Shown: one piece after another, positions 1,126 to 9,352 of the stretch
Position numbering within the stretch: the first letter of the stretch is position 1
Layout: each line of letters opens with the position of its first letter
From: Methanomicrobiaceae archaeon
Lineage (GTDB): Archaea > Halobacteriota > Methanomicrobia > Methanomicrobiales > Methanomicrobiaceae
Reading direction: 5' to 3'
DNA length: 63,640 bases
NCBI GenBank assembly: GCA_029762625.1
Contig: JARVGI010000011.1
Coordinates: forward strand, 1-63,640
Program-made: the position numbers and the translations under genes
Notes under the pieces: model-generated
Seen by the model: only the letters and a program-made list of their open reading frames with translations
What the model was told of the DNA's origin: nothing
The model's database searches: none

Positions 1126-1653
1126 TCACCCCTTCTCCAGCACCTCGATCGCCCTGCCGGCGCGGGCCTGCAAAAGGCCGCTTTCGTGCTCACGGAATGG
1201 CCAGATGGCACCCACGATGCGCGGCTTACTCGTCGGCACCCGCATGCCGATACGGGTGAGGCTGACGATGGACCAGCTCTGCACGAAGAGGTTGTCGTCC
1301 TCGGCGAGGAGATGTTCGAGGGTGCCGATGACCCTGTCGAGATCCTCCTTTTCGATGGGAATTTCCCCGAGGAGCATGGCCATGTGCAGGCGGACCATGG
1401 GGACCGGGTCGGAGCGGGCGGAGCGGGTGATGGGGGGGACGGAGCCGGCGAGCAGCCCCGGTTCTGCAGCGGCGATGCGCTCCAACGCGTGGGAGGTTTT
1501 GGCGAGAGTGATGTCTTCCAGGCTCTGCAGCCCTTCGACGAGCAGGGGGAGGCGCTCGTGGTGGGCGAGGATCTCCCCGACCACCACTTCGGCATCCTTT
1601 GCGCTGGTGGGGTCCCGGGTAATCCGCCGAAGCACGATGTTGTCACGAGGCAT
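1126..1653 (-). CDS. HEAT-repeat protein, copy 1
   Basis: An all-helical protein whose segments (for example T-S-H-A-L-E-R-I-A and V-R-L-H-M-A-M-L-L-G) match HEAT/armadillo-type repeats, a scaffold for protein contacts. It is clearly paralogous to the protein at 5368-5880: both share the blocks L-P-L-L-x-E-G, T-S-H-A-x-E-R-I-A and S-D-P-V-P-x-V-R. I chose the ATG at 1653 because it aligns with the start of that paralog and codon use before it is less typical. An in-frame ATG at 1764 sits about 29 bases from a TATA element and could be a leaderless start instead. Partner unknown. Confidence 0.65.
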   Translation of the reverse strand: MPRDNIVLRRITRDPTSAKDAEVVVGEILAHHERLPLLVEGLQSLEDITLAKTSHALERIAAAEPGLLAGSVPPITRSARSDPVPMVRLHMAMLLGEIPIEKEDLDRVIGTLEHLLAEDDNLFVQSWSIVSLTRIGMRVPTSKPRIVGAIWPFREHESGLLQARAGRAIEVLEKG

Positions 1654-1778
1654 GGAGAGACCGGAACCGTGCGACACCAGAAAGATTGGGAGGCGCATGC
1701 GCACCGCGCCCCTGCGCTCACCGGCAAACCCCGCAATCACCCATTTCGTTCCGCCAATGATCATCCTTCTCGAAACGC

Positions 1779-1898: not shown

Positions 1899-3881
1899 AT
1901 GAAACAGGACCAGAATTCAAAAAAACCTTCAAATAGCCACAGAAAACCGAATCGGGGGCAAATAGCTCTCGGGCCGGTCAGGAGGCTGGAGGAGCATGTG
2001 CAGCCGGAATGGTGGCGGGATATTTTTTCCCCCCTCTACCTGAAAACCGACGGCGACGTGGTGGATGATGCGGCGATCACCGCGGGGGAGGTCACCCACC
2101 TCTGCGGTGTGCTGGACCCCGCTCCCGAAGTCCACATCCTGGACTGCTGCTGCGGGCAGGGGCGCCATACCCTTGAGCTTGCCCGCCGGGGGTATGCGGT
2201 GGAGGGACTGGACCGCTCCCACTACCTCATCCAGAAGGCCCGGGCCGCGGCCCGCAGGGAGGGGCTCCCGGTGCGCTTCCGGGAGGGGGATGCCAAGCAG
2301 CTGCCCTACCGCCCCGACACCTTCGACGTGGTGGCCGTGCTGGGCAACAGCTTCGGCTATTTCGAAACGGTGCAGGAGGACCTGCAGGTGCTGAACGGGA
2401 TCCGGCGGGTGCTCAAACCCTACGGTAAAATCGCGCTCGATCTCGCCGACGGGGGCTACCTGCGGGAGTATTTCCAGCCCCGATCATGGGAGTGGATCGA
2501 CACGAGGCTCTTCGTCTGCCGCGAGCGGGAGATCTCCGTGGACGGGCAGCGGCTGGTCTCAAGGGAGGTGATCTGCGACATCGAGAAGGGGGTGATCGCC
2601 GACCAGTTCTACGCCGAGCGGCTCTATACGAAGGAACGGATCACCGGTCTGCTGGAGAAGGCGGGGTTCTCCGACGTTGCCGTCCACGCCTGCGAGAGCC
2701 GCTCCACCCGCAACCAGGACCTGGGGATGATGGCGAGACGGTTCCTGGTGAGCGGGGTGGTGAAAAAGGCATGGACCCCGGTAAAACAGCGGGCGGCGGC
2801 GCGGACCCGCCACGTCGCCGTGCTCATGGGCGACCCCCGGAAACCCGATCCGGTCAAACCCGACGGGACGTTCGACGAGGACGACTTCTCCACCATCGAT
2901 CAGCTCAAGGCAGCCCTCGCGGGCCTGAAAGGATACCACTTCTCCTTCCTCGACAACCACGACACCCTGGTCGCCGACCTGCAGCGCCTGCGGCCGAAGT
3001 GCGACTACGTGTTTAACCTCTGCGACGAGGGGTATGCCAACGACGCCCTCAAGGAGCTCCACGTGCCCGCCCTCCTCGAGATACTCCAGATCCCCTCCAC
3101 GGGGGCGGGGCCGCAGGCGCTTGCCAAGTGCTACGACAAGTCCCTGGTGCGGGGGATCGCCCGGGAGCTGGGGGTGCCCGTTCCCCGGGGGATCTTCGTC
3201 CACCCCTGGGAACGGGTCTACGATGTGCCCTTCGGCTTTCCGGTGATCATCAAGCCCAACTGCGGCGACTCGTCCGTCGGCATCACCCAGAAGAGCGTGG
3301 CCTGGACGGCCGAGGAGCTGAGCAACGCCATCCTCACCATCCGCTCCCAGCTGGGAAGCGACGTCTCATTGCTGGTGGAGGAGTTCTGCACCGGCAACGA
3401 CCTCACCGTCGGGATCATCGGCAACCCTCCCGCGCCCTGCACCGTGCTCCCGGTGATCGAGGAGGACTACTCCTCCCTCCCGCCCGGGCTGCCCAGGATC
3501 TGCGGCTACGAGGCCAAGTGGATCCCCGAGTCCCCGTACTGGAAACTCTCCTCGAAGCCCGCGGATATCCCCCCCGAGACGGAGAAACTGATGATCCGCT
3601 GCTCCCTGCTCCTCTTCGAGCGGATGGGGTGCCGGGATTACTGCCGCTTCGACTGGCGGCTCGACGCCGGGGGCGAGCCCCGGCTTCTGGAGGTCAACCC
3701 CAACCCGGGCTGGTGCTGGGACGGTCACCTTGCCAAGATGGCAAAGTTCTCCGGGATCTCCTATACCGGCATGCTGGGAATGATCCTTGCCGCTGCGGAG
3801 GAGCGCCTGGGTATGGCTCCCGCAGTGGCACTGGCGGTGGGTGCGGAGCGGGTGCCGGTGGAGGCGGACTTACTCCCCTGA
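1899..3881 (+). CDS. Class I SAM methyltransferase fused to a D-Ala-D-Ala-ligase-like ATP-grasp domain
   Basis: About 660 residues. Residues ~35-290 are a Rossmann methyltransferase: motif I C-G-Q-G-R-H near residue 85, an acidic D-R-S loop, and a G-D-A-K-Q-L-P-Y segment. From about residue 303 an ATP-grasp enzyme of the D-Ala-D-Ala ligase type begins (H-V-A-V-L-M-G-D-P), with G-A-G-P-Q-A-L-A-K-C-Y-D-K near 402, I-I-K-P-N-C-G-D-S-S-V-G-I near 448, V-E-E-F near 491 and the Mg-binding E-V-N-P-N-P-G near 597. Such ligases join two amino or acyl groups via an acyl phosphate. Archaea lack peptidoglycan, so the product is probably a small peptide-like or amide metabolite that is also methylated; this is inference. 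The TTG at 1896 is possible, but the ATG at 1899 follows a GGT-type site. Confidence 0.8.
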   Translation: MKQDQNSKKPSNSHRKPNRGQIALGPVRRLEEHVQPEWWRDIFSPLYLKTDGDVVDDAAITAGEVTHLCGVLDPAPEVHILDCCCGQGRHTLELARRGYAVEGLDRSHYLIQKARAAARREGLPVRFREGDAKQLPYRPDTFDVVAVLGNSFGYFETVQEDLQVLNGIRRVLKPYGKIALDLADGGYLREYFQPRSWEWIDTRLFVCREREISVDGQRLVSREVICDIEKGVIADQFYAERLYTKERITGLLEKAGFSDVAVHACESRSTRNQDLGMMARRFLVSGVVKKAWTPVKQRAAARTRHVAVLMGDPRKPDPVKPDGTFDEDDFSTIDQLKAALAGLKGYHFSFLDNHDTLVADLQRLRPKCDYVFNLCDEGYANDALKELHVPALLEILQIPSTGAGPQALAKCYDKSLVRGIARELGVPVPRGIFVHPWERVYDVPFGFPVIIKPNCGDSSVGITQKSVAWTAEELSNAILTIRSQLGSDVSLLVEEFCTGNDLTVGIIGNPPAPCTVLPVIEEDYSSLPPGLPRICGYEAKWIPESPYWKLSSKPADIPPETEKLMIRCSLLLFERMGCRDYCRFDWRLDAGGEPRLLEVNPNPGWCWDGHLAKMAKFSGISYTGMLGMILAAAEERLGMAPAVALAVGAERVPVEADLLP

Positions 3882-5367: not shown

Positions 5368-5880
5368 TCAGTCGAGGATATCGAGCGAACGGCTCGCCCG
5401 CACCCGGACGATGGCGCTGGGGTCGTCGGCCAGCGGGCGGATCCCGGCGGCGATGGCCTCTTTGCGGTCCGGGTTGCGCCACGCGATGTCGGTGAGGCTG
5501 ACGATCGCCCAGCGGCGGACGAGAACGCTCCTGTCATGGAGCATCGCCAGCAGGACAGACACGTCCGCCTCCGGATCCCCGCCCGCGTAGGGGATGCATC
5601 CCAGGATCACGGCGTAGCGCCAGCGGACCACGGGCACGGGATCGCTGCCGGCAAGCTCGATGAACCGTGCGGTGAGGGGGCGCACCAGTTCGGGGTCGGC
5701 GCAGGCGATCCGCTCCATGGCATGAGAGGTGCGGGCCCGGATACGCCCATCGGGATGGCCCATCCCCTCGGCAAGCAGGGGGAGGAGCGACGGCGTCGAG
5801 AGGACGTCGGCGGCAACCTCGCCGCAGGCGCCTTCCATTCGGATATCCTCCGCATCCAGGCGCTCAAGCAGTGTATTCAT
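5368..5880 (-). CDS. HEAT-repeat protein, copy 2
   Basis: 170 residues, helical repeats with T-S-H-A-M-E-R-I-A, S-D-P-V-P-V-V-R-W and V-R-R-W-A-I-V-S-L-T-D-I-A blocks. Paralog of the gene at 1126-1653. The open frame extends further upstream, but the ATG at 5880 follows TTGAGGGC and lies five bases after the stop of the lipoprotein gene, so the two are almost certainly cotranscribed. It may be a scaffold for that membrane protein; this is inference. Confidence 0.7.
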   Translation of the reverse strand: MNTLLERLDAEDIRMEGACGEVAADVLSTPSLLPLLAEGMGHPDGRIRARTSHAMERIACADPELVRPLTARFIELAGSDPVPVVRWRYAVILGCIPYAGGDPEADVSVLLAMLHDRSVLVRRWAIVSLTDIAWRNPDRKEAIAAGIRPLADDPSAIVRVRASRSLDILD

Positions 5881-5884
5881 GCCC

Positions 5885-6589
5885 TCAACCACGGCGGCGA
5901 ACCTGCCCGGCACGCGCAACGCCGCAGCACAGGATGCACACTGCGGCGATAGCAATCCAGCATGAAAAGCCCGGTACACCCCGGGCGGGAGCCGCAGACT
6001 TCGCGAAAAGCACGGTGCCCAGCATGTCCGCGCCGGAGAGATGCCATTCTGCGGTGGCGCCTTCAACAGCATCGGCATTGGAGTCCACGATCGCACCGGG
6101 CATCACAAGGTAGTAATTGACGACGAATGCCGTCGCCGTGCCCGACGCAAACGGATCCTCTCCTCCTATCTTCGAACCACTCCTGCCGTCACCGATGACA
6201 TGCCGGTAGACGAGGTGCTCGCCCTCGCGGGCGACCTGGACGCCCGCAAGCTGGTCTGCAGAAAGGTCGCTTTGTGCGGAAAACGTCATGAAGACCTCAC
6301 CGCCAATCCATTGCTCGTCGTAGGCAACCGGGGCGGTATCCGCACCCGGCAGAAGCCCCCGCTCTTCGATCATCGCCCTCACTGTCGCATACCCCTCCTG
6401 GTGTGCCGATTCCTCGAGAAGCACGTAGTTGTCCTGGCTGGTGGTCACCTCAAGGCGGTAGTGGCTGATGGTTCCGTCGGCGTCCACGGTGGTATACATA
6501 TCAGCGGTCAGGCAGCCGGCAAGGCAAACCGCCACGGCGCAGAGGCCGACGAGAACACCGATCAGGTGTGCTGGTTGTGATGCATGCAT
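5885..6589 (-). CDS. Membrane-anchored lipoprotein of unknown function
   Basis: 234 residues. An N-terminal signal sequence ends in the lipobox L-A-G-C near residue 26, and a second hydrophobic helix with a C-I-L-C-C motif lies near residues 205-225, followed by a basic stop-transfer tail. The protein is therefore anchored at both ends, with the middle (about 175 residues) outside the membrane. No domain is recognised. The downstream HEAT-repeat gene starts immediately after it. Confidence 0.65.
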   Translation of the reverse strand: MHASQPAHLIGVLVGLCAVAVCLAGCLTADMYTTVDADGTISHYRLEVTTSQDNYVLLEESAHQEGYATVRAMIEERGLLPGADTAPVAYDEQWIGGEVFMTFSAQSDLSADQLAGVQVAREGEHLVYRHVIGDGRSGSKIGGEDPFASGTATAFVVNYYLVMPGAIVDSNADAVEGATAEWHLSGADMLGTVLFAKSAAPARGVPGFSCWIAIAAVCILCCGVARAGQVRRRG

Positions 6590-7855: not shown

Positions 7856-9304
7856 CTACGCCACCCCCCGGACAGAGTAGGCCCAATCGAGGAATTCCTG
7901 GCCGATCTTGCTCTGGTAGCCGATCAGGCCGTAGCCCCCGTCCTGCCACCCGCCTCCCCAGCTGTTCTTCACGATCCAGCTATTCTGGGCGTCATCCCAT
8001 CCGGTGAGCACCACGCAGTGCCACCACTCGCCTGAACAGACGGCGAGGGGGCCGTGGCAGAGGAGGTTGCGCTTCAGCTGGTCCCTGGTGCCGGTAGAGG
8101 AGGCGTAACTGTCGATGGTCCAGACCGCATGGTTGTACGTGCAGACCCCGCAGGTCTGGGGCGATGAGCAGTGGCCGGCGAAGTTGCAGACAAGTTTCTG
8201 GTGGTTGGGATCTTCGGGCTTCGGATCGGGTTCGTTGTGCACGCAGTTCGTGGAGGTATAGGGGAAGCAGCTCTCCTCCACCACCCCGTCAACCTTCAGG
8301 TGGTCGAGCACCGATTTGATGTTCCCGCCCATGCAGGACCCCACGCCGGTAAAGCACGGGGAGACGTACTGCTGCTCGGCGAGGTTGAGGTTGAGCAGGG
8401 CGTTGTGCTCCAGGTTGTAGACGGCCTCCATGGCCCCCAGGGGCGCATGGGCGTAGCAGGAGCCGCAGGCCGCCTGGTCACGCACCGGCGTCAGCCAGTT
8501 CCGGCCCTTCCAGTTGCGGTAGTCGAAGGACGCCGGGAGGCCGGGGGCGGTGCAGGGGTTGCAGGAGACCGGGCAGGTGCCGCCGCAGTCCACATCCTCC
8601 TCGGCGCCGCCCCTCACCCCGTCATCGCAGTCGCAGGCATCCCCGAGGCCGTCATTGTCGCTATCGGCCTGGTCCGGGTTGAACACGGTGGGGCAGTTGT
8701 CGCAGGCATCCCCCACGCCGTCCGGGTTGGGGACGGGCGCACAGGCCTGGGTGTTGATGTCCGCCTGGATGCAGTGCATCTTCATCTCGCTGTCCTCCTG
8801 GCCCGGGTTCGCCACCGTGGGGCAGTTGTCAAGGATATCCGGGAAGCCGTCCCCGTCGGTATCCTGGAGCTTGGGGATGAGCGTCGTGGGGGTGGGCACC
8901 GGGGCGTAGGTGAAGGCGGGCGTGGGCGTCACCAGGACCAGGTCCGGGGTGATGAGCGTGGGCACCGGGGTTGGAGTGGCCGTGGCGGTCGGGGTGGGCG
9001 TCACCACAATCCGGGTGGGAACGACGAACGTGGGCAACTGCCGGACCGGGCCGAAGCAGTACTGGGGGATCAGGGTGCCGCGGTCGATGGCAAGGTAGCC
9101 ACAGACCGAGTCGTTACACCGGTAGTAGCCATCCCGCCCGTATTTCTCGATGGCCGCCTCTTCCCGCATGCACTCGCAGGGGGCTATGCACGTGTCAAAG
9201 GCCCCGGCGGCCCCCGGAAGGGCGATCAGGAGCAGGAGCGCGATCGGGAGGAGACGGTGGCGGGCAGGGTGGTGCCACCATTGTGGTCGGGAAATGTTGC
9301 GCAT
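7856..9304 (-). CDS. Secreted papain-family (C1A) cysteine protease with thrombospondin type 3 repeats
   Basis: 482 residues. Signal peptide at ~17-35; a Cys-containing region to ~85; a Thr/Pro-rich linker at ~88-145; Asp-rich calcium-binding type 3 repeats at ~147-225 (D-T-D-G-D-G, D-S-D-N-D-G); then a C1A peptidase domain at ~255-482. The catalytic residues are visible: Cys in Q-A-A-C-G-S-C-Y near 282, His in W-W-H-C-V-V-L near 429 and Asn in V-K-N-S-W-G-G-G near 445. It should cut proteins outside the cell and be stabilised by calcium. I chose the ATG at 9304 rather than the GTG at 9319 because GAGGTG lies at the right distance before it. Operon with the DUF333 gene downstream. Confidence 0.9.
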
Positions 9305-9352
9305 AAAGGTACACCTCACAGAACAGTTGACTAGAGTAAACGATGGCGGGAA

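Follow-up and report, generated by a model that had tools for sequence, protein, structure and literature searches.

A methyltransferase–ATP-grasp ligase fusion in a methanogen and its relatives across bacteria and archaea

What a single polypeptide that joins a methyltransferase to an enzyme resembling D-alanine-D-alanine ligase (Ddl) might make in a methanogen is the question raised by the locus described here. A preliminary description of the DNA presented the protein as a ligase of cell-wall type whose host has no peptidoglycan, and proposed two activities for it, the formation of an amide or ester bond and the methylation of either substrate or product. Because bacteria of many phyla carry the same fusion, the peptidoglycan argument is uninformative, and the pocket of the ligase is not that of Ddl. 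The core of the proposal, bond formation and methylation by one polypeptide, stands as the best-supported reading, with the exception of the ester, for which no specific support emerged.

Architecture of the fusion gene

In the window, that is, the whole analysed stretch of 63,640 nucleotides, the fusion is encoded on the forward strand by a single open frame of 660 aa that begins with ATG and contains no internal stop, and it is a single-copy gene in a methanogen genome that is 99.8% complete. The features of the gene are:

1899..3881, + strand: coding sequence of the methyltransferase / ATP-grasp ligase fusion (P0001), 660 aa, with full-length homologues
1899..1967, + strand: basic N-terminal tail, residues 1-23, probably disordered
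1956..2786, + strand: class I SAM-methyltransferase half, residues 20-296, NmbA-like
2004..2048, + strand: conserved segment PEWWRDIFSPLYLKT, residues 36-50, matched by an N-terminal stretch of NmbA that lies outside the common SAM core
2133..2168, + strand: SAM motif I HILDCCCGQGRH, residues 79-90
2343..2363, + strand: GNSFGYF, residues 149-155; its Y and F are the counterparts of NmbA Y134/F135, proposed SAM adenine contacts
2766..2807, + strand: inter-domain linker, with low model confidence at residues 296-300
2808..3818, + strand: ATP-grasp ligase half, residues 304-640, Ddl fold
3252..3281, + strand: KPNCGDSSVG; K452 corresponds to Ddl K144, and S458/S459 to Ddl S150/S151
3510..3521, + strand: EAKW; K540 corresponds to Ddl K215, and W541 stands in place of the substrate-site Y216
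3690..3728, + strand: EVNPNPGWCWDGH; Mg ligands E598 and N600 are kept, and G609/H610 stand for Ddl S281/L282, in an alignment uncertain by one residue

Both domains are intact, as the preliminary description had claimed: the one open frame contains two Pfam domains that exceed their cut-offs (Methyltransf_25 at residues 80-176, 5e-20; Dala_Dala_lig_C at residues 445-629, 1e-21, 77.6 bits against a gathering score of 24), and the quoted motifs are found at residues 81-90 (LDCCCGQGRH), 452-461 (KPNCGDSSVG) and 598-604 (EVNPNPG). An alignment of 55 family members has 117 invariant columns, distributed over both halves, and the 22 residues preceding LGP are consistently basic across the family, with a mean net charge of +4.25. 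Relative to the nearest clean relative (L033), the two halves have dN/dS values of 0.12 and 0.16, which indicates that both are under similar purifying selection and excludes a pseudogene; the corresponding comparison with L034 is void, the contig of the latter being frameshifted. A third domain in long members of the family was also considered and rejected, the additional length consisting only of low-complexity tails or over-extended reading frames. Judged from its sequence, the fusion is probably a conserved, bifunctional and active enzyme. The full-length AlphaFold model has a pLDDT of 85.7 and a pTM of 0.56, and only loosely constrains the relative placement of the two active sites.

Distribution, inheritance and genomic context

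At least 581 relatives are present in public genome contigs, and the best 80 of these align over essentially the whole protein at 59-97% identity. Carriers among these 80 belong to roughly 20 bacterial and archaeal phyla, the archaea including Methanomicrobiales, Methanosarcinaceae, Methanophagales, Asgard archaea and Jordarchaeia, and the bacteria Planctomycetota, Thermodesulfobacteriota and other deltaproteobacteria, Atribacterota, Chloroflexota, Thermotogota, Aminicenantes, Zixibacteria, Cloacimonadota and others. Closest among the matches listed are Methanoculleus-type Methanomicrobiales (L034, 97%; L033, 89%), and cultivable Methanosarcinaceae are included, with Methanolobus among the named carriers. 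Most carriers are metagenome bins, and some taxon labels may be wrong; the copy labelled 'Nitrosotalea' (L084), for instance, has an identical counterpart in a genome from the phylum of the window. Near full-length open reading frames occur at 106 loci. Within the window's phylum 81 of 393 sampled genomes have a match, some ligase-only matches being counted in, and within its class the methyltransferase half is found in 56 of 199 genomes; in these 56 carriers the methyltransferase and the ligase lie in one frame, bar a few partial, contig-edge or broken copies. Many bacteria and archaea retain the fusion, with a sequence identity of about 60%, and it is universal within the family, which rules out an assembly join of two genes. 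The sequencing error for which the preliminary description had allowed is thus not the source of the fused frame. A description of this methyltransferase–Ddl-type ligase architecture was not found in the literature searched, although Iyer et al. (2009) may have mentioned it in their survey of ATP-grasp enzymes.

Several copies depart from the common form. In two deltaproteobacterial copies (L055, 2143-2418; L072, 8007-8282) the N-terminal segment, comprising the basic tail and LGP..DWWRNIFNHLYLK, is apparently duplicated. Broken copies occur in two relatives (L138, G121:C2; L139, G003:C1), the lesions being an in-frame stop and the absence of a stretch in one case, and a split frame in the other. 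One further relative (G368:C1) has three copies (L122, L123 and L124), of which two, at a distance of 18.7 kb from each other, score identically and one is incomplete; this suggests a segmental duplication or an assembly effect.

A quick tree, in which archaea and bacteria are interleaved with 9 archaea/bacteria changes, hinted at transfer between the domains. However, the tree improves by 34 log units when the archaea are kept as one group, and one archaeal clade is not rejected by the AU test, so that inter-domain transfer is not established. At lower rank, the patchy presence within the class and the broken copies, as read from sequence, show losses or transfers, and they suggest that the gene is dispensable.

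The observation that the gene has no pathway neighbours proved correct for the window and extends to the family as a whole. No neighbours are conserved across phyla, since clustering of flanking open reading frames yields lineage synteny only and a Pfam scan of 153 neighbours finds any one family in at most four members. Shared flanking genes, such as those for an ABC transporter and DNA polymerase IV, reflect the synteny of close relatives, and the EamA transporter gene that lies next downstream of the fusion, 340 bp away on the same strand, is not recurrent as a neighbour. This lack of conserved neighbours would fit an enzyme for which common metabolites suffice. Among plasmid and phage records there is no match that reaches 80% coverage of the query and, with respect to a role in defence, the sole PADLOC match (mad2) spans just the generic SAM core.

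Two paralogous repeat-like proteins (window 1126-1764 and 5368-6096, both on the reverse strand; 37% identity over 134 aa, 3e-23) flank the fusion gene and its neighbour, the first of them lacking a Pfam match. Farther along, at 7856-9319 on the reverse strand, is what appears by eye to be a secreted papain-like cysteine protease (GSCYAHA, NSWG) of a methanogen, its protease part preceded by aspartate-rich repeats of a calcium-binding type.

The ligase half and its nearest relatives

The C-terminal half is, by sequence and by model, a ligase of the ATP-grasp superfamily. Structure prediction bore out the kinship to the Ddl fold, with matches to Ddl structures in a fold search at 18-27% identity and a TM-score (target) of about 0.8, and comparison of the pockets by residue alignment revealed differences. 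The roles of the residues of DdlB are established. In alignment with the E. coli enzyme, K97, K144, S150, S151, E180, K215, R255, D257, E270, N272 and G276 are kept, and those that serve ATP and Mg binding and phosphoryl transfer (K97, K144, E180, K215, R255, D257, E270 and N272) are retained in 54 or 55 of the 55 members, so that the missing catalytic residue envisaged in the preliminary description was not encountered. Only S150, however, is kept from the D-Ala pocket set of H63, S150, Y216, S281 and L282; the other four give way to E377, W541, G609 and H610, each of them invariant across the family, with the S281/L282 position possibly off by one residue owing to an insertion. The region of Ddl E15, to which the first D-Ala binds, has an insertion and an acidic cluster, F325 being placed there by an unreliable alignment.

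The fusion therefore shares with the Ddl and VanA D-Ala-D-X ligases (PF07478; TIGR01205; PRK01372) the fold and the residues for ATP, Mg and the acyl phosphate, but it differs from them in its pocket and scores under the curated Ddl cut-offs (114.6 versus 243 bits for PRK01372; 103.4 versus 245.65 bits for TIGR01205). Matches to Dala_Dala_lig_C are found in 14 of 14 control genomes, archaea included. The pocket changes and the failed cut-offs argue that this half is not a D-Ala-D-Ala ligase, and it is most likely, from its sequence, an ATP-dependent carboxylate-amine ligase of another kind. That it might be a genuine D-Ala-D-Ala (or D-Ala-D-Lac) ligase to which a methyltransferase has been added is hardly credible, for although the Ddl fold and the intact ATP site would suit such an enzyme, the scores lie far under the cut-offs and four pocket residues have been exchanged for other invariant ones. 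Such genes should thus not be annotated as D-alanine ligases by homology alone.

The H63-to-E and Y216-to-W replacements recur in the nearest ligases outside the fusion family. Ddl-like ligases in aminomutase/GNAT operons (L113-L115, L120 and L121) share EAKW with the fusion, are about 29-38% identical to its ligase half, and have glutamate, or aspartate in one case, at the H63 position. Unlike the fusion, they are without a methyltransferase, are fused to or lie beside a GNAT or aminomutase, and are organized in operons, an association that points to amino-acid chemistry. The apparent operon (L113 8059-11730, L114 7818-11489 and L115 6884-10558, also L120 and L121) combines one or two Ddl-like EAKW ligases with a GNAT acetyltransferase and a radical SAM enzyme of the lysine-2,3-aminomutase type. 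Its fusions vary (ligase-GNAT, aminomutase-ligase), and its sequence suggests a route to an acetylated beta-amino-acid peptide. Other Ddl-like ligases are fused to an S58-family peptidase domain (L116 7453-9570) or to an M20-like peptidase domain, the latter adjoining a gamma-glutamyltranspeptidase gene (L117 5922-9714).

Lysine aminomutase genes are found in 31 of the 56 carriers in the window's class versus 55 of the 143 non-carriers (p = 0.04, kinship uncorrected), a weak association. In the window's genome itself a GNAT-like gene lies downstream of a lysine-2,3-aminomutase-type gene (L125 681-2829, G000:C21), an arrangement that is ablAB-like, so the organism probably has a way of making N-acetyl-beta-lysine that does not involve the fusion.

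The methyltransferase half and the predicted reaction

The N-terminal half is, on its motifs and its modelled fold, a class I SAM-methyltransferase: SAM motif I and the acidic residue of motif II are invariant (55 of 55), and a model of this half (pLDDT 90.9) matches methyltransferase folds. Its best solved relative by sequence is PDB 9RI2 (5e-27, the next methyltransferase scoring 2e-13), identified by fold search as the bacillithiol N-methyltransferase NmbA, and the NmbA profile match extends past the common SAM core to cover residues 37-265. The reaction of NmbA is the N-methylation of bacillithiol at its cysteine amine (PMC12719100; PMC6282198), and no archaea were found with the bacillithiol/NmbA pathway (PMC12719100). 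The Chlorobaculum tepidum enzyme has the SFGYF motif in common with the fusion, but it stands alone and works with BshA/B/C, whereas the fusion carries a ligase and is about 26% identical to it, under the threshold of 35% identity or more that was used in the network of the NmbA paper (PMC12719100). BshC is absent from the window's genome, and bacillithiol itself is thus an unlikely substrate there. Among the other fold neighbours are glycine/sarcosine N-methyltransferases and the peptide N-terminal methyltransferase CypM, together with several C- or O-methyltransferases. The GSMT of Methanohalophilus (PDB 5HII and relatives) shares the class I N-methyltransferase fold, with a TM-score (query) of 0.65-0.69, and itself acts on an amino acid; it differs from the fusion in lacking a ligase domain and in its sequence (about 20% identity). 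Because of the kinship to NmbA and the N-methyltransferases among the fold neighbours, the best guess, by analogy, is that the methylated atom would be the nitrogen of an amino-acid amine.

An even chance is given to the reading that the fusion is a self-sufficient two-step enzyme, which would form an amide between common amino-acid-like substrates and N-methylate an amine. The C-terminal ATP-grasp half would phosphorylate a carboxylate with ATP and join the resulting acyl phosphate to an amine, creating an amide (dipeptide-like) bond, and the N-terminal half would transfer the methyl group of SAM to the amine of one amino-acid-like substrate or of the ligated product. Both sites would act on the same molecule, and the outcome would be a small N-methylated peptide-like metabolite whose precursors are available in most cells. 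Counting against this reading are the low identity to NmbA, the C- and O-methyltransferases among the fold neighbours, the loosely constrained placement of the two sites in the model, and a basic tail that could suit a macromolecular partner.

A low-molecular-weight thiol synthase, in which the ligase would attach cysteine to an amine and the methyltransferase would N-methylate the cysteine amine, so that organisms lacking bacillithiol would have a redox buffer resembling N-methyl-bacillithiol, is unlikely. NmbA is the nearest solved methyltransferase and its match reaches past the SAM core, and in a genome without BshC such a thiol would need another cysteine ligase; yet the sequence carries no sign of cysteine specificity, the kinship to NmbA is distant, and the nearest outside ligases are tied to aminomutase and acetyltransferase genes. 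Slightly less probable is an action on a macromolecule, in which a protein or RNA would receive both an amino acid and a methyl group from the fusion, guided to it by the N-terminal tail. Some ATP-grasp enzymes do modify proteins (cf. PMC4431377). The consistently basic tail and the very strong cross-phylum conservation would suit a conserved macromolecular target, but Ddl-type ATP-grasp enzymes and NmbA-type methyltransferases work on small molecules, no linkage to translation genes exists among the scanned neighbours, and the patchy presence in one class and the broken copies suggest a dispensable gene. Somewhat less probable again is a role, as distinct from a mechanism, in making a methylated compatible solute, an amide product that would accumulate under salt or ammonia stress. 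The beta-lysine-type genes beside the nearest outside ligases recall N-acetyl-beta-lysine synthesis, and the betaine-forming GSMT is among the fold neighbours; against this, the aminomutase association is weak, the window's genome already has its own aminomutase and adjoining acetyltransferase, and many carriers among the matches listed are, by their record titles, groundwater organisms.

The two-step amide and N-methylation reading can tentatively be taken further, to a one-gene synthase of an undescribed, widely shared cofactor-like small molecule, for example an N-methylated cysteinyl or other aminoacyl amide, in archaea and bacteria. Such a synthase might even have been inherited from an early split, since a single archaeal clade of the family is not rejected. 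The fusion appears to require just common substrates, ATP and SAM, and its retention without partners over two domains of life points to a metabolite, common to both, that has yet to be charted.
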